Source of the DNA: Nitrospira sp.
GTDB taxonomy: Bacteria > Nitrospirota > Nitrospiria > Nitrospirales > Nitrospiraceae
DNA length: 64,000 bases
Direction: 5' to 3'
Assembly (NCBI GenBank): GCA_022226935.1
Contig: CP092081.1
Coordinates: 978,734-1,042,733, forward strand
Shown: positions 44,726-55,463 of the stretch, one piece after another
How the letters are laid out: each line of letters opens with the position of its first letter
Position numbering within the stretch: position 1 is the first letter of the stretch
Notes under the pieces: model-generated
What the model saw: the letters and a program-made list of their open reading frames with translations, nothing else
The model's database searches: none
Told to the model about the DNA's origin: nothing
Translations under genes and position numbers: made by a program

Positions 44726-44908
44726 ATGCACAGACGACAGGGATCCCGTGCCGTTCAACCGACGGCGTGCCGGCATCATGCCTGTTTGCCCCGCGCCGGA
44801 TTACCTGAGGCAGGAAGGAGGGTGCCATGGGACGCAAATATGACCTCGTGGATGTCATGGCAGCGATCGGGTTGGTGGCCACCTTATTCGGAGGATATCT
44901 GCTCGTGA
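44726..44908 (+). CDS. Possible short leader ORF
   Basis: This 60-codon ORF has an excellent Shine-Dalgarno (AAAGGAGG) 7 nt upstream of its ATG but overlaps the next gene by 82 bp in another frame, and its Arg/Ala/His/Pro-rich composition looks non-coding. The Shine-Dalgarno itself lies in a small hairpin (AAAGGA, GGG loop, TCCTTT; 44711-44725). It may serve translational coupling rather than make a functional protein. Confidence 0.25.
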   Translation: MHRRQGSRAVQPTACRHHACLPRAGLPEAGRRVPWDANMTSWMSWQRSGWWPPYSEDICS

Positions 44909-45777
44909 CGGCTGCCGATGGATTTTGGCAGGCACCGATCACTCCCACCATGAGCAGTGTCACCGTCGGCAATGAACCATCCACTGGCATGCAGTATCTC
45001 CAGCCGGTGTTAGGACAAGCCATCGTGCAAGACTTGTTGCTGGAGCAGGATGCCGGCGCAGCCTTGTCGACCTCTGCGATGGAACTGAACCGCGCTGTCA
45101 GTGAGTCTGAGCGAATCTCCACCACGTTGTTAAGTCCGCTCGTGCTGGCGGAATTGCGCGCCTTCGGACAGGACACCGATCACCGAGCGCGCATGCAGTA
45201 TGTCATGGGCAAGTCGGTCGTCAATCAGACGCGGCGTGGCATCTCGACCGGAATGCTTTCCGCTGACCAGTATGGCGGCGAATTCAATGCCACCCTGATC
45301 AGGACGGCCGAGTTGACCGGGCAGCGGATGCACGACCAGTTCGAGGCCACGAGACAGCCGGCACTGGGTCAATCGATCATCGAGGCTATTCAAGAGGAAG
45401 ATCGGATGACCGCCGCGGCTCAGGAACGAGTCGGACGGGCTGTGGTCCAGGTGACCCAAGCTCAGGAGAACTATGCGGAAGCGAAAGCCGACCGGCAGAT
45501 CCAATTGGCCAGTGCGACGGTTGCGGCGGTACGTACCGGTGTGTTGATGGACCGGCTGGCGCTCTTAGAAGACATGTCGGCTGACCGGACGATGATCGCC
45601 CATCATCATCGGACTGCCAGCGCGGACGTCTCGCGCGGTTCCCTGATTCTGGCTTGTGTCGGGCTCATCGCCCTGTTCGTGGGCGGGTTGGCCTTCAGCA
45701 GCCGGAAAGGCGAGGAGGAGATTATTCCGCTCTGGAAGCTGGAAACATTACTGCAATTGCATCGGTCGGGCAGATAG
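44827..45777 (+). CDS. Bitopic membrane protein of unknown function
   Basis: This 316-residue protein has GGAGG 6 nt upstream of ATG. It has an N-terminal hydrophobic segment (about residues 9-29, DVMAAIGLVATLFGGYLLVTAA), a long helical soluble region (about 35-265) with many Ala, Gln and Glu, and a second hydrophobic segment (about 269-289; GSLILACVGLIALFVGGLAFSS) followed by a charged C-terminus. The topology suggests a periplasmic helical domain held between two helices. No family was recognised. A 40-codon membrane-protein gene follows after a strong hairpin. Confidence 0.65.
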   Translation: MGRKYDLVDVMAAIGLVATLFGGYLLVTAADGFWQAPITPTMSSVTVGNEPSTGMQYLQPVLGQAIVQDLLLEQDAGAALSTSAMELNRAVSESERISTTLLSPLVLAELRAFGQDTDHRARMQYVMGKSVVNQTRRGISTGMLSADQYGGEFNATLIRTAELTGQRMHDQFEATRQPALGQSIIEAIQEEDRMTAAAQERVGRAVVQVTQAQENYAEAKADRQIQLASATVAAVRTGVLMDRLALLEDMSADRTMIAHHHRTASADVSRGSLILACVGLIALFVGGLAFSSRKGEEEIIPLWKLETLLQLHRSGR

Positions 45778-46905: not shown

Positions 46906-47418
46906 TCAAGGTTGTGTGTCAGGTTTCTGATGGTGCCACTCTCGCGGATTGGCGGAGTGGGCTTGGTAGGCTTGGCCGAACCCGAGCACGAGGTGGGCAT
47001 CACTCATATGCAGCTCCCAGATGGCGAAGTCGCCGAAGCCGAACAGCATCCGTGATTGTGGGAATTGTGCCAGGTACCGCTGTTTCACCCCGTCATACGA
47101 CTCGTGGGACGGGAGGAGAATCGCCCCACTCCCTTGCAAGTTGAGGCGTTGCAACGCCGACGGGTTCTTTCCTGCTCCGTCCGGTTCGGCGATAAACAGA
47201 CTGACGCGGGGATCTTCGAGCAGATGGTGGGTGTGCGAGGCCAAGCGGCTCAGGTGGAGATAGACGCGGGACCAATCGTCACCGATCAGATAGGGAACAT
47301 GTGACCCGAAGGGATGGCCCTGCTTGAGCGTCAACAACACGGCGACTCGTACGTGCGCCACGAGTGCGTCGCAAGCACTCTGGACCTCTTTCGTCGGCAT
47401 CGTATCCGGCATCGGCAT
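46906..47418 (-). CDS. Pyridoxamine 5'-phosphate oxidase-like (HugZ-type) FMN split-barrel protein
   Basis: The start at 47418 (MPMPDTMPTKEVQSACDALVA) has GGAGGG 6-8 nt upstream. The 170-residue protein has the split-barrel opening VAVLLTLKQGHPFGSHVPYLIGDDWSRVYLHLSRLASHTHHLLEDPRVSLFI, then LQRLNLQGSGAIL and RYLAQFPQSRMLFGFGDFAIWELHMSDAHLVLGFGQAY. This is characteristic of HugZ-like haem-utilisation or flavin-binding proteins; substrate not determined. It is divergent from the lipoprotein cluster. Confidence 0.8.
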   Translation of the reverse strand: MPMPDTMPTKEVQSACDALVAHVRVAVLLTLKQGHPFGSHVPYLIGDDWSRVYLHLSRLASHTHHLLEDPRVSLFIAEPDGAGKNPSALQRLNLQGSGAILLPSHESYDGVKQRYLAQFPQSRMLFGFGDFAIWELHMSDAHLVLGFGQAYQAHSANPREWHHQKPDTQP

Positions 47419-47601
47419 AGCTCGCCCTCCAGTAGGGCCATTGTAGCCGCCTCTGATCGATTGTCCAGTCATCTGATAATGCAGGCAGCCGGCTCTGCCG
47501 GAAGATCTTCGCAGATCACGCTTTGCGTCGGGGAGAAGCGCAGGATAAGATGTGCCGCTGGCGATGGCGCATATGGCGAGAGAAACAGGGAGACGCAGAC
47601 T

Positions 47602-48003
47602 ATGAGACACATGCAATGGGGATTGGCGCTGGTGGGCATCTGTGCTGTGATCGGTCTGACGGGATGCGGTGGCAAGCAGGCCGAGATCAAGGAAGACCGG
47701 TTGACTGTCGGCCGCGTGCAGGGGGAAGTGAAAGTCGGTATGTCGGCCGCGCAGGTGGCGGAACTCCTGGGTTCGCCGAATATCGTCACTACCGACGACA
47801 AGCGGCGAGAGGTGTGGATCTATGACAAGGTGTCGACGGATCGGGTCGACACGTCCAGCTCATCGTATGCCGGGCTCATCATACTTGGGGCAAACTCCAG
47901 CGATCACTCCAGCTCTCAGCGGCAGCGCACCTTGACCATCATCATTAAGTATGACGAAGACAAGAAGGTCAGAGATTTTGCCTACAACTCGACCCAATTC
48001 TAA
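47602..48003 (+). CDS. SmpA/BamE-like lipoprotein, first of a four-lipoprotein run
   Basis: The ATG at 47602 follows GGGAG. The 133-residue protein has a lipoprotein signal ending in LTGC (residues about 19-22), then VGRVQGEVKVGMSAAQVAELLGSPNIVTTDDKRREVWIYDK, the 'v..GMs..qV..lLG.P' motif of SmpA/OmlA/BamE proteins, and a C-terminal strand LTIIIKYDEDKKVRDFAYN. It is anchored in an outer membrane leaflet and could belong to envelope assembly or quality control. It leads three paralogous lipoprotein genes. Confidence 0.8.
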   Translation: MRHMQWGLALVGICAVIGLTGCGGKQAEIKEDRLTVGRVQGEVKVGMSAAQVAELLGSPNIVTTDDKRREVWIYDKVSTDRVDTSSSSYAGLIILGANSSDHSSSQRQRTLTIIIKYDEDKKVRDFAYNSTQF

Positions 48004-48595
48004 GCCGCCCCGTCAAAAGCTCGGAGGCGGGTGGGTCGCCCTCATCTTGACGCTGGCCTGCGGCATGTGCCTCGGCGGTTGTGCGGAACGGACACAGCCC
48101 ACGCAGTTCTTTGAACTCTCGCCGGAGAGCAGCGCCAATCGGGCGATGCAGACCCGTCTCTTTGAAACGGGAGCTGAAAACGAGTTGTTATCGGCGTCGG
48201 CCGCCTCGCTGCAAGATCTGGGCTTTCAGATAGAGGAGAGCGTGCGGGAGGTCGGGCTTTTGCGCGCGGCAAAAGAGCGCAGTGCCCGGGAGTACGGTCA
48301 GTATCGCAACCGCTTCCTCATTTGGCTAGTGTCGCTCGGGCACCTGGTCATTCCGGTCGATTTACATCAGAAAATTGCCGCGACGATTGTGATCCGCCCG
48401 GCGAGCCAGGATCATGCGCGGCAGGAAGTCCGAATCATCTTCTATCGCGTGATATGGAAGGGAGACGGCCAAGCGGATCGCAACTATATTCCACCCGGCG
48501 AGCAGAAGATGGAAATGATCCGTGACCCGGAGATTTATCAGCAATTCTTTGCGAAGCTTTCCAAGGCGGTATTCTTGGAACCGCATTCGATTTAA
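47951..48595 (+). CDS. Lipoprotein paralogue A of a tandem family
   Basis: The ATG at 47951 lies inside the preceding gene (53-bp overlap); a TTG at 47978 with AAGG upstream is a realistic alternative. The signal WVALILTLACGMCLGGC ends in a lipobox cysteine (about residue 44). The mature domain shares with the next two proteins the segment RLFETGAENELLSASAASLQDLGFQIEE...VGLLRAAKER and the ending RDPEIYQQFFAKLSKAVFLE. It has an extra hydrophobic insertion (FLIWLVSLGHLVIPVDLHQK). No named family was recognised. Confidence 0.72.
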   Translation: MTKTRRSEILPTTRPNSKPPRQKLGGGWVALILTLACGMCLGGCAERTQPTQFFELSPESSANRAMQTRLFETGAENELLSASAASLQDLGFQIEESVREVGLLRAAKERSAREYGQYRNRFLIWLVSLGHLVIPVDLHQKIAATIVIRPASQDHARQEVRIIFYRVIWKGDGQADRNYIPPGEQKMEMIRDPEIYQQFFAKLSKAVFLEPHSI

Positions 48596-48607
48596 CGGCG
48601 AGGACAC

Positions 48608-49045
48608 ATGAATCGGAGACAAGTCATCGGAGCGGTGGGGATCGTGACGGCTGCCCTGGTGCTGCACGGTTGTGTGGCTCCGGAGCCACGGCAAGAACTG
48701 TTCGCGCCGACTGATGCCCAGATGAAGATCCGGAGTGCGCAGAGCCGCACGTTCGAGGTCAATGATTCCACCGTGGTGATGCGCGGAGTGATCGCCGCCT
48801 TGCAAGATTTAGGATTTATTATTGAACGCGCTAATGCGCCGCTCGGGCTGGTGACCGCAGCGCGGTTTGCCGAACCCAATTATTATGATGTCCTCGGGGT
48901 GACGGTGACGGTGAGGCCTCAAGAAGCCGGCAAGACTATGATCCGGGCCAATGCGATTTATAACAGCAAGCCGATCGAAGACCCGAAGGTCTATCAGAAC
49001 TTTTTTGCCGCGGTGGAGCGGTCGTTGTTTCTGGTGAAGGACTAG
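48608..49045 (+). CDS. Lipoprotein paralogue B of a tandem family
   Basis: The 145-residue protein has a lipoprotein signal ending in LHGC (about residues 19-22). The mature part reads SRTFEVNDSTVVMRGVIAALQDLGFIIERANAPLGLVTAARF and, near the end, EDPKVYQNFFAAVERSLFLVKD, matching paralogues A and C closely. A middle strand LGVTVTVRPQEAGKTMIRANAIY fits an alpha/beta fold. It starts 12 bp after paralogue A and ends 3 bp before paralogue C, so all three are one operon. Confidence 0.8.
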   Translation: MNRRQVIGAVGIVTAALVLHGCVAPEPRQELFAPTDAQMKIRSAQSRTFEVNDSTVVMRGVIAALQDLGFIIERANAPLGLVTAARFAEPNYYDVLGVTVTVRPQEAGKTMIRANAIYNSKPIEDPKVYQNFFAAVERSLFLVKD

Positions 49046-49048
49046 CGC

Positions 49049-49651
49049 GTGGCCGGTCGCCGTCGTGTAACGCTGTTCACATTTCGCCGGTCGAGCGTTC
49101 GACCATGCGTGGGGAGTGCCCTCCTGCTCGCGGTGCTCGCGGCCGGCTGCTCGCCCTATGAATGGCGACATGACAATCAATGGGAATCGCGCGACCAGAT
49201 CTGGCTGTCCGAAGCGAGCCAGGTCAAGGTACGGGCGGCGCAAAGCCGGGTGTTCGATGGGGCTGACCGGGTCAAAACGATTCAGGCGGTGGTCTCTACC
49301 TGTCAGGATCTGGGGTTCGCCGTCGAAGTGCTGGATGAAGCCCTCGGGATCGTCTCGGCAAAGAAGTTCGATGATTACGAACCGTCTCGATTGAGTGATC
49401 CCTCCTATCATCTCTATCGGGATGACGGGCTGTTGATCGTGACTCAGCACTTCCGGAGCTGGGGGCCGTTTTACCACCGGAGCAATCTGGTTCGTCTCAC
49501 GGTGACGGTTCGGCCGCGCGGAGATGCGCAATTGGTCGTGCGGGCCAGCGCCCAGTATTACCTGAAGGCGATCGAGTCTCCCGAGCCGTATCAGCAATTT
49601 TTTCGGACATTGGAACAGGCGCTGTTCATTCAGGCGAGTGTCTCGCCTTAG
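49049..49651 (+). CDS. Lipoprotein paralogue C of a tandem family
   Basis: A GTG start 3 bp after paralogue B opens a 200-residue lipoprotein (signal ending AAGC, about residue 34). The shared segment is SRVFDGADRVKTIQAVVSTCQDLGFAVEVLDEALGIVSAKKF and the shared ending ESPEPYQQFFRTLEQALFIQA. A middle insertion (DDYEPSRLSDPSYHLYRDDGLLIVTQHFRSWG) is absent from B. The family is small, envelope-anchored and unrecognised. A weak hairpin (49706-49730) lies downstream. Confidence 0.8.
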   Translation: MAGRRRVTLFTFRRSSVRPCVGSALLLAVLAAGCSPYEWRHDNQWESRDQIWLSEASQVKVRAAQSRVFDGADRVKTIQAVVSTCQDLGFAVEVLDEALGIVSAKKFDDYEPSRLSDPSYHLYRDDGLLIVTQHFRSWGPFYHRSNLVRLTVTVRPRGDAQLVVRASAQYYLKAIESPEPYQQFFRTLEQALFIQASVSP

Positions 49652-49755: not shown

Positions 49756-50077
49756 TTACACGCCACGCTGATGGGAGGCACCGTGTGGGTCGTCAATCTG
49801 CAACTCTCCTCCCTTCTCTTTCGTGGAACAGCTCGCCGACATCAAGGTAGTACACACCGGCCCAGAAACTGCCGGGATGGGAATGGGCCTCATTGACACC
49901 GCCGTTTTGCTGCACATTGGTCCACACTTCCACCACACCCCAATCCGGTCGACCAGTGTCCTGCCCACAGCGCTGGGACAAGGTGGTGACTTGTTTCGCC
50001 ACTTCCAACATCGGAGCGAGCAAGTCTCGCAAGGGTTCGCCGGCCCAGTCGAGCATGGAAAGATCATCGGTCGGCAT
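49756..50077 (-). pseudogene. Decayed 2OG-Fe(II) oxygenase (PF13759-like)
   Basis: From ATG 50077 the frame reads VEVWTNVQQNGGVNEAHSHPGSFWAGVYYLDVGELFHE, the core of a 2OG-Fe(II) oxygenase family (H-x-H-P-G-S-x-x-x-G-V-Y-Y). It then leaves the conserved frame and stops at 49793, while a neighbouring frame continues with GGELQIDDPHGASHQRGV to 49756. The frameshift lies near 49810-49818. The N-terminal third of the family and the C-terminal arginine region are not seen. It looks like a remnant; sequencing error could explain the frameshift but not the missing ends. Confidence 0.6.
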
Positions 50078-53351: not shown

Positions 53352-55463
53352 ATGGCCACCAAGAGATTATCGTCACGTGCCGAGTCTTCCACGCCCGCGT
53401 CTCCCTCCGAATCCACCGAATCTGAATCGGCCGCTTCACGGAACACATCTGTCGCCGCACGAAAATCGGCGCCCGCGGTTACGGCGGTGGAAATGGGCGC
53501 GCGGCAGCGCGAGATTTCCGTGTCCGAATTCTTCACGAAGAATCGGCACCTGCTGGGATTCGACAATCCACGGAAGGCGTTGCTGACGTGCGTGAAAGAA
53601 GCGGTCGACAACTCGCTGGATGCCTGTGAAGAAGCGGGCATCCTGCCGGACGTGACGGTGAAGCTCGAAGTGGTGGCGAATGGCTCCGCGCTGGTTGCAC
53701 CGAGTCAAGCGACCCGTTTTCGTATCACGGTCACCGACAACGGGCCGGGCATTGTCCGCCAGCAGATTCCGCGCGTGTTTGCGAAGCTGCTCTATGGATC
53801 CAAGTTTCACCGCATGCGGATGAGCCGGGGGCAGCAGGGCATCGGGATTTCCGCGGCCGGTATGTATGGCCAGCTCACGACCGGCAAGCCGGTGAAAGTG
53901 ATTTCGCGCACCGGCCCACGGGCGGCGGCGCATTACTTCGAAGTGCAAATCGACACGAAAAAGAATGAACCGCTGGTGCATGAAAATAAACAGATCGAGT
54001 GGTCGCAACCGCAAGGCACCGAGGTGGTACTGGAAGTCGAAGGACGATATCAAAAGGGTCGCGCCTCTGTGGATGAATGGCTGGAGCAGACATCGATTGC
54101 CAATCCGCACGTGCGGCTCACGTATTCCACGCCGGAAGGGGAACAGAAGAATTACCCTCGCACCTATCACGAATTGCCGCCGTCGCCGAAGGAGATCAAA
54201 CCGCATCCGTACGGGATCGAATTCGGGGCTCTGCTCAAGATGCTGCAGGATACGAAGAGCCATACGGTCGCGTCGTTTCTGGCCAGTGATTTTTGCCGGG
54301 TGTCGCCCGTGTTGGCCGAGGAGATCTGTAAGGCCGCCAAACTGTCGCCTGCGATCAAACCCCGCGAGGTCAAACCCCACGCAGCGGAAACGCTCTACAA
54401 AACCATCCAGACCACCAAAATCATGGCGCCGCCGACCAATTGCATTTCGCCGATCGGCGAGAAGGCGATTCTTTCGGGCCTCTACAAGCAGATCAAGGGC
54501 GAGTTTTATACGGCGGTCAGCCGTCCGCCGGCCGTCTATCGCGGATATCCCTTTGTCATCGAAGCAGGACTCGCATTCGGGAAAGGGCCGGACGAAGTGT
54601 CGAAGCCGCAGCAGGCGGCGGTGCCCCTGGCGGAAGGCGAAGATCAAGGCAACGACACCGAACAGGCGCGAGTGATCCGATACGCCAATCGGGTGCCCTT
54701 GCTCTATCAACAATCGGCCTGTGCCACCTTCAAAGCGGTGCTCAGCACCACCTGGCGCAACTATGGTGTCAGCCAGTCGCGAGGCGCGTTGCCTGCCGGA
54801 CCGATGGTGATCTTTGTGCATATGGCCTCCGTCTGGGTGCCGTTCACCAGCGAGTCAAAGGAAGCCATCGCCGACTACGACGAAATTCAGAAGGAAATTA
54901 CCCTGGCTCTGCGCGAAGCCGGTCGGCGGCTGGGGATTTTTCTCCGCAGGCGCGAACGGGCCGCCAGCGAATTCCGGCGGCGCAATATTTTCGAACTCTA
55001 TATCGAAGAGGTGGTGGCGGCGTGCAATCGGTTGAAGGGCGGGAACCTTCCCACTGAAAAACTCAAAGAACAGCTGCACAAAATCGCCAGTTCGCGGACG
55101 GGCGGCCTCAAGACGGATGAGGCGCTCGGGAAAACCGGCGCCGGGCCTGAAGGGCTGCCCCATTCCATCATCGTGACAGCGGAAGGTATCGAGGGAGAGC
55201 GCGAGATCGCTGAGAATGTCCCGGCGCCTGGGGCGGGTCCGGTGAAATCTGTCTCTCTTGAGACCGCTCCTCTGACCAAGCCTCCCGCGAAAGGGAAGCG
55301 AACGACCGCAACCGCGCCTGCATCAAAAACACGTGGGCCTGCCTCGCGTGAGAAGCGCAAGGCCGGGCAGCAGGAGTTGTTCGCCGAAGCGGCTGAGGGA
55401 AAGAAGGCGCCGGCGCGCAAGAATGCATCCAAGGCGGCGGCAGCCACTCGCAAAAGGACATAG
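53352..55463 (+). CDS. top6B: DNA topoisomerase VI subunit B
   Basis: The 703-residue ATPase subunit has a GHKL (Bergerat) fold: N-box KEAVDNSLDACEEAG (about residues 81-95), G1 box VTDNGPGI (about 130-137), G2 box GQQGIGISAAGMYGQLTTGKP (about 160-180), followed by helix-two-turn-helix (FCRVSPVLAEEICKAA) and transducer regions with the switch-lysine area. It has a Ser/Ala-rich N-terminal extension (about 45 residues) and a Lys/Ala-rich C-terminal tail (about 640-703) that could bind DNA. Topo VI is a type IIB enzyme typical of archaea and uncommon in bacteria. GAGG precedes the ATG. Confidence 0.93.
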   Translation: MATKRLSSRAESSTPASPSESTESESAASRNTSVAARKSAPAVTAVEMGARQREISVSEFFTKNRHLLGFDNPRKALLTCVKEAVDNSLDACEEAGILPDVTVKLEVVANGSALVAPSQATRFRITVTDNGPGIVRQQIPRVFAKLLYGSKFHRMRMSRGQQGIGISAAGMYGQLTTGKPVKVISRTGPRAAAHYFEVQIDTKKNEPLVHENKQIEWSQPQGTEVVLEVEGRYQKGRASVDEWLEQTSIANPHVRLTYSTPEGEQKNYPRTYHELPPSPKEIKPHPYGIEFGALLKMLQDTKSHTVASFLASDFCRVSPVLAEEICKAAKLSPAIKPREVKPHAAETLYKTIQTTKIMAPPTNCISPIGEKAILSGLYKQIKGEFYTAVSRPPAVYRGYPFVIEAGLAFGKGPDEVSKPQQAAVPLAEGEDQGNDTEQARVIRYANRVPLLYQQSACATFKAVLSTTWRNYGVSQSRGALPAGPMVIFVHMASVWVPFTSESKEAIADYDEIQKEITLALREAGRRLGIFLRRRERAASEFRRRNIFELYIEEVVAACNRLKGGNLPTEKLKEQLHKIASSRTGGLKTDEALGKTGAGPEGLPHSIIVTAEGIEGEREIAENVPAPGAGPVKSVSLETAPLTKPPAKGKRTTATAPASKTRGPASREKRKAGQQELFAEAAEGKKAPARKNASKAAAATRKRT

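Follow-up and report, generated by a model that had tools for sequence, protein, structure and literature searches.

A recurring cassette of BamE-family and helix-grip lipoprotein genes in Nitrospira, other bacterial phyla, plasmids, and phage contigs

A cassette of small lipoprotein genes, comprising one BamE-family gene (E) and two genes of an unnamed helix-grip family (B and D) that are joined by a third (C) in the Nitrospiraceae, was identified in a Nitrospira genome and recurs in conserved order over several phyla, on plasmids, and in phage contigs. The cassette is undescribed as far as the databases and literature searched go. Full-text literature searches (BamC-like or BamE lipoproteins, Flpp3 together with BamC, and prophage exclusion together with BamA) found no prior description, in agreement with a sequence-only reading of the locus that knew of no named system with such a layout. 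The BamC/Flpp3 helix-grip fold, the multi-phylum cassette, and its presence on plasmids and phages go beyond that reading. Our best explanation, which we put forward tentatively, is a mobile outer-membrane lipoprotein cassette that would dock on or near the BAM machine and alter outer-membrane assembly or the cell surface.

Genomic locus and gene boundaries

The window (the whole 64,000-nucleotide stretch of DNA that was analyzed) comes from a Nitrospira genome of 4.23 Mb. The four consecutive lipoprotein genes that had been read from it are all present as open reading frames (Table 1), each with a signal peptide and a lipobox (E, ...LTGC; B, ...LGGC; C, ...LHGC; D, ...AAGC; with the following residue, the E lipobox is LTGC-G). 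A divergent gene, whose start probably lies inside the listed reading frame, precedes the set and a convergent gene follows it, so E-B-C-D is probably one transcription unit; a promoter and terminator scan gave no signal above chance. The tight packing noted for the genes, with gaps of 3 to 12 bp, holds between B and C (12 bp) and between C and D (3 bp). With the upstream ATG at 47951 as the start of B, however, B and E share 53 bp. The start codon of B is uncertain, and a start past the E stop would leave a very short signal peptide.

Table 1. Genes of the lipoprotein cassette and its boundaries (positions in the window)
Feature	Position	Strand	Basis and remarks
E: BamE-family (SmpA/OmlA) lipoprotein	47602..48003	+	133 aa; Pfam BamE PF04355
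B: helix-grip lipoprotein with hydrophobic insert	47951..48595	+	alignment A2, AlphaFold2 model, Foldseek
C: helix-grip lipoprotein without insert	48608..49045	+	alignment A1, AlphaFold2 model, Foldseek, trees
D: helix-grip lipoprotein, GTG start	49049..49651	+	alignment A1, relatives in other phyla
PNPOx-family gene, divergent boundary, outside cassette	within 46909..47616	-	PF01243, E 6e-10
2OG-Fe(II) oxygenase-like fragment, convergent boundary, outside cassette	49793..50077	-	PF13759, E 1.8e-8

The localization signals were also compared among relatives, a check that the sequence-only reading had proposed. Of the lipoboxes scored, aspartate at position +2, the inner-membrane retention signal of E. 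coli lipoproteins, was present in only 1 of the 83 from D and in none of the 74 from B or the 46 from E; these +2 residues fit a predicted retention of E, B, and D in the outer membrane. The signal peptide of C (window 48608-48680) starts in a twin-arginine-like manner (MNRRQVIGAVG) and falls just under the NCBIfam TAT model (14.5 versus 16.7 bits). This copy of the cassette does not lie in a prophage. About 4 kb downstream, at window 53352-55463, lies a gene for subunit B of topoisomerase VI, an enzyme mainly known from archaea and plants, and a 316-aa protein without a Pfam match is encoded at window 44827-45777 and stays near the cassette throughout the genus Nitrospira.

B, C, and D are homologues with a predicted helix-grip fold

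The view of B, C, and D as three paralogues of an unnamed family was borne out. The core R-x-F ... QDLGF-xx-E ... G-[LI]-[LV]-x-A-x-[KR] and the C-terminal P-xx-YQ-x-FF-xx-[LV] can be read directly in all three, and QDLGF, R92, and PxxYQxFF are among the conserved residues of the grip proteins. A single-sequence search of the same genome with C recovered D at 2e-8 and B at 3e-5. The profiles of D-type (A1) and B-type (A2) proteins aligned in HHalign with 99.8% probability over 120 columns, compared with 0.3% for the unrelated E family of the same operon as a control. By these comparisons, B, C, and D are true homologues. No credible Pfam family match was obtained for 72 B-, C-, and D-type members, with PF06804 and PF12092 absent at E values up to 10, and no NCBIfam family matched the window proteins or 40 D-type relatives. 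A divergent D relative in locus L133 (1405-1851) passes the Pfam cut-off of DUF1499 (23.8 versus 22.6 bits), and DUF1499 may be a distant branch of the grip family.

AlphaFold2, run on home-made alignments, yielded a confident model for C (pLDDT 88, pTM 0.78) and one of fair quality for B (pLDDT 78.7). The C model consists of an N-terminal helix followed by strand-helix-four strands-helix, and the models of C and B each contain one helix-grip domain. In Foldseek searches of the PDB, E. coli BamC occupied ranks 1 to 13 for C (best E value, 1.8e-6) and ranks 1 to 9 for B (best E value, 1.1e-3), with a probability of 1.00 in both cases. VIA-align placed Flpp3 on top for C (9nlt_B: Z 11.3, rmsd 2.6, 93 aligned; 6pny: Z 10.9, rmsd 2.8, 97 aligned), and the BamC N-domain (Z 10.2, rmsd 3.8, 101 aligned) was tied with other grip folds; Flpp3, a plant Bet v 1-like protein, KA1 domains, and BamC all fell in one narrow band of Z 9 to 11. 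The predicted fold of B and C is thus helix-grip, with BamC and Flpp3 as the nearest lipoproteins, and this fold alone does not prove descent from BamC. Remote kinship of the grip proteins with BamC or DUF3568 is suggested by HHalign, in which the A1 and A2 profiles reached 23% and 69% with BamC (the N-domain for A1) and the A1 and B profiles reached 82% and 6% with DUF3568.

A PDB sequence search with C gave no match, and a BFVD fold search gave no informative viral relative. Weak matches of the B profile to RNase H and a receptor in the PDB were dismissed as chance (E value of 0.07 or worse). A BamE-like C-terminal tail seen by eye on the D protein of locus L082 (5815-6612) reached only 20% in HHalign with no Pfam match, and no fusion is claimed.

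The BamE-family protein and the hydrophobic inserts

The first gene had been called SmpA/BamE-like, and the Pfam search agrees: E matches PF04355 at 26.8 bits, above the cut-off of 23.2, and is the sole BamE-family match in the genome carrying the window. Other E members are borderline (19.5 to 23.7 bits), several of them just under the cut-off. The alignment of the family (A3) contains the motifs GM...V...LGSPN and W-x-Y. Among the cassette proteins, only E matches well in PHROGs (phrog_3135, to which no function is assigned there).

A hydrophobic, Gly/Ser-rich insert of about 34 residues around YAGLIILGANSS lies between the W-x-Y and TLT motifs of E, and B carries a hydrophobic insert of about 28 residues, QYRNRFLIWLVSLGHLVIP, between two strands. 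The best 12-residue window had a median hydropathy of 2.31 in B, exceeding 1.0 in 59 of 59 proteins, and of 1.46 in E, exceeding 1.0 in 89% of 66, compared with a median of 0.61 and 32% above 1.0 for random 25-residue pieces of the same proteins. D proteins outside the Nitrospiraceae are without such an insert, and the Nitrospiraceae D has an insert of its own. The inserts, we infer, may bring E and B into contact with one another or with the membrane.

An insert so far above background in E and B would also suit a lipid- or cell-wall-binding outer-membrane complex that is unrelated to BAM, in which the grip cavity and the inserts of E and B hold or move lipid or brace the membrane. Proteins of the helix-grip fold often take hydrophobic ligands, and both Flpp3 and Bet v 1 are near by VIA Z score; no lipid-handling gene travels with the cassette, however, and we consider this explanation rather unlikely.

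Distribution and gene order across phyla

A scan of a species-level genome collection returned 64 loci. Besides Nitrospira, the carriers are labeled as Nitrospinota, Desulfobacterota/Thermodesulfobacteriota, "Deltaproteobacteria," Planctomycetota, and Pseudomonadota (Rhodospirillales, Micavibrio, and others), labels to be taken with caution since many carriers are metagenome assembled. The order E-B-D, or E-B-C-D in the Nitrospiraceae, is kept in nearly every intact locus, in tallies that count some Nitrospira genomes twice, and order and strand are the same in some fifty loci outside Nitrospira. Similar tandem sets, whose search had been suggested, recur over several phyla. A two-gene form, E with a single grip gene, is present in further families of the same order and sporadically outside it, a Vibrio replicon among the cases.

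Within phyla the cassette is sparse: genomes drawn from the phylum of a Desulfobacterales carrier (L055) gave a match in 10 of 297, those from the phylum of a Micavibrio carrier (L074) in 9 of 398, and those from the phylum of a Planctomycetota carrier (L049) in 7 of 294, the carrier included in each case. In the genus Nitrospira, 25 of 28 other genomes have a match, and the cassette occupies one fixed chromosomal site, which runs from Lnt and PNPOx to dodecin and a PAS regulator. Several Nitrospiraceae genomes have neither the cassette nor any BamE match, so its function is dispensable. Across the loci read, no recurring neighbor names a function; only PAS and regulator genes, which are common, recur, and no bam, toxin, or lipid-handling gene does.

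A chance cluster of ordinary, unrelated lipoprotein genes, which are common and small, was also considered. This explanation is contradicted by the order and strand kept in some fifty loci, and the correlated divergence of the genes and the intact cassettes on plasmids and phages also speak against it, which makes it highly improbable. The proposal that the genes encode subunits of one outer-membrane complex very probably holds, considering the E-B-D order kept over several phyla and the near absence of Asp at lipobox position +2.

Several loci depart from the usual arrangement. L133 and L134 (genomes G879 and G947; 2.0 Mb) contain E and five grip genes, of which two lie convergently on the other strand; two of the proteins seem to be without a lipobox. 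In two Nitrospira loci (L025 and L047), the cassette D is split over two frames, with another D-like copy at a distance of about 3 kb. An apparent natural B-D fusion in L068 was rejected, as the reading frame runs across a block of N.

Ancient divergence of B and D and a local third copy

Phylogenetic trees separated the B and D clades with support of 100/99. Each clade holds many of the carrying phyla, and the B/D split is therefore, on the tree topology, older than the acquisition of the cassette by the Nitrospira lineage. Duplication in place followed by divergence, as had been proposed for the three paralogues, may apply to C, a local Nitrospiraceae extra, but not to B and D, whose split predates the lineage. 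The C copy was found only in the Nitrospiraceae, and a single Nitrospiraceae clade of C and D was neither shown nor rejected (AU p = 0.44). In four Nitrospiraceae genomes (G101, G126, G264, and G248), a TGA stop falls inside the C-type match while the D match stays open, a hint that these genomes have a damaged C or can do without it.

The window's D corresponds to the second grip gene of cassettes in other phyla. Its nearest relative outside Nitrospirota belongs to Nitrospinota (56% identical), and nearest relatives are often labeled as another phylum. The median identity across phyla is 53 to 67%. Over 40 loci, the identities of E, B, and D are correlated beyond permutation (Spearman 0.36 to 0.66), as would be expected if the three genes travel together.

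Cassettes on plasmids and in phage contigs

The cassette is carried by an 8-kb plasmid from a paper-mill isolate of Acinetobacter, where its neighbors are replication genes, RelE/ParE-type toxin-antitoxin genes, and a SulP gene. A 704-kb replicon of Azospirillum carries it as well (L227, 6929-8372), next to an IS5 transposase. These plasmid copies are annotated as "hypothetical protein" because the family is without a Pfam or NCBIfam entry. Complete cassettes were also found in at least five viral contigs, all metagenomic, and in most of them genes for phage head, tail, or terminase lie alongside; a collection of annotated phages gave no cassette match. The cassette lies between a head protease/major head gene and a major tail gene, on the opposite strand, in L224; before the terminase genes of a Mu-like phage in L225; between a CI-like repressor gene and tail-fibre genes of opposite direction in L231; and after an OLD-like ATPase-TOPRIM gene and before tail-fibre assembly genes in L229. 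Such positions are typical for accessory genes of temperate phages. With phage genes on its flanks in L224, L225, L229, and L231, the cassette is a candidate phage accessory gene set (moron) there.

These sites resemble those of the lysogenic-conversion lipoproteins of temperate phages as a general class, whereas the cassette combines BamE and BamC folds in three genes, is mostly chromosomal, and spans several phyla. They would also suit a surface-exclusion or protection module of phages and plasmids that shields the envelope from other phages or envelope-attacking toxins, with the likeness to BAM one of fold only and the cassette retained by some chromosomes. The accessory-gene positions in L224, L231, and L229 and the location before the terminase genes in L225 point in this direction, as does the proposal that BamE-like lipoproteins act as periplasmic immunity proteins against lipid-targeting toxins (PMC12419801). 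Immunity proteins evolve fast, however, in contrast to the identity that the cassette retains across phyla, and its single fixed site in the genus Nitrospira, the lack of a toxin gene recurring beside it, and the absence of a match in the annotated phage collection weigh against such a module, which we judge to be rather unlikely.

Comparison with known lipoproteins

BamC (NlpB, PF06804) is an outer-membrane lipoprotein with helix-grip domains and the top Foldseek match of C and B, but it has two such domains per chain, whereas B, C, and D have one each. The BamD-binding N-terminal tail of BamC comprises about 75 residues in E. coli, with the domain at residues 101 to 212 (PMC3359395); the cassette proteins are without this tail, and a median of 25 (B) or 32 (D) residues separates the lipid-bearing Cys from the grip domain. 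None of the 72 B-, C-, and D-type members matches the PF06804 model, and cassette members lie in other phyla. Failing three tests (Pfam match, tandem domains, and tail), the grip proteins are not BamC itself.

E is a lipoprotein of the same Pfam family as BamE/SmpA/OmlA, with its motifs and an outer-membrane-type lipobox, and differs in its conserved hydrophobic Gly-rich insert and in the several members under the cut-off. Flpp3/DUF3568 (PF12092) is, like the grip proteins, a single helix-grip lipoprotein, and it is the top VIA-align match for C and aligns well with A1; B, C, and D nonetheless have no Pfam match to it, and its agreement with the B profile is slight. Flpp3/DUF3568 is not, to our knowledge, associated with a BamE-like gene. 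BamF of Caulobacter is a lineage-specific lipoprotein in the BAM complex of bacteria without BamC, with no evidence for a fold in common with BamC beyond the disordered N terminus (PMC3359395), while the cassette proteins have a predicted grip fold.

A possible mobile module acting on BAM

A mobile cassette that docks on or near BAM is, to us, the most likely explanation, although a tentative one. Since BamC tops the Foldseek matches and E is of the BamE family by Pfam, E and the grip genes resemble accessory subunits of one machine. The cassette would comprise E, with the BamE fold, and two BamC-fold subunits of ancient divergence (B and D), joined by C in the Nitrospiraceae. All of these would be exported, retained in the outer membrane, and periplasm facing, and may form one hetero-complex that its lipids and the E and B inserts hold at the membrane. 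This complex would dock on the BAM machine or next to it, like BamE and BamC of E. coli, and docking would change which outer-membrane proteins get assembled or how tight the membrane is. A phage- or plasmid-borne cassette would thereby alter the surface of a new host (lysogenic conversion), and in Nitrospira the fixed cassette would serve as a permanent accessory BAM module.

In favor of docking, the conserved E-B-D pairing, the mobility, the correlated identities, the lipobox +2 residues, and the five-POTRA BamA and BamD-like protein encoded by the host genome all appear consistent with it, as does the lack of any BamE-family match outside the cassette in that genome. Several observations argue against it: no bam gene recurs beside the cassette in the loci read and no direct link to BamA or BamD was seen; B, C, and D are without the BamD-binding tail; the cassette is dispensable in the Nitrospiraceae; and the helix-grip fold is common, with limited HHalign agreement with BamC. 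Two carriers (G276 and G280) encode a separate, stronger BamE-family match besides the cassette, so E need not be the BAM subunit there.

Implications

BamC has been reported only in beta- and gammaproteobacteria (PMC3359395; PMC13067283), and for deltaproteobacteria a study from 2012 raised the possibility that other proteins evolved for the roles of BamB, BamC/BamF, and BamE (PMC3359395). Cassette carriers belong mostly to lineages in which BamC is reported absent (PMC3359395; PMC13067283), and the cassette is a concrete candidate for BAM accessory roles in deltaproteobacteria and beyond, with its partner genes named. The further idea of an unrecognized mobile BAM-modifying complex, by which phages and plasmids install their own BamE and BamC look-alikes on the host BAM and which Nitrospira kept and extended with a third grip subunit, is more doubtful. 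If the cassette does act on BAM, a phage- or plasmid-borne re-tuning of outer-membrane assembly would be new, with relevance to the host range of phages, to permeability, and to how envelope traits spread.
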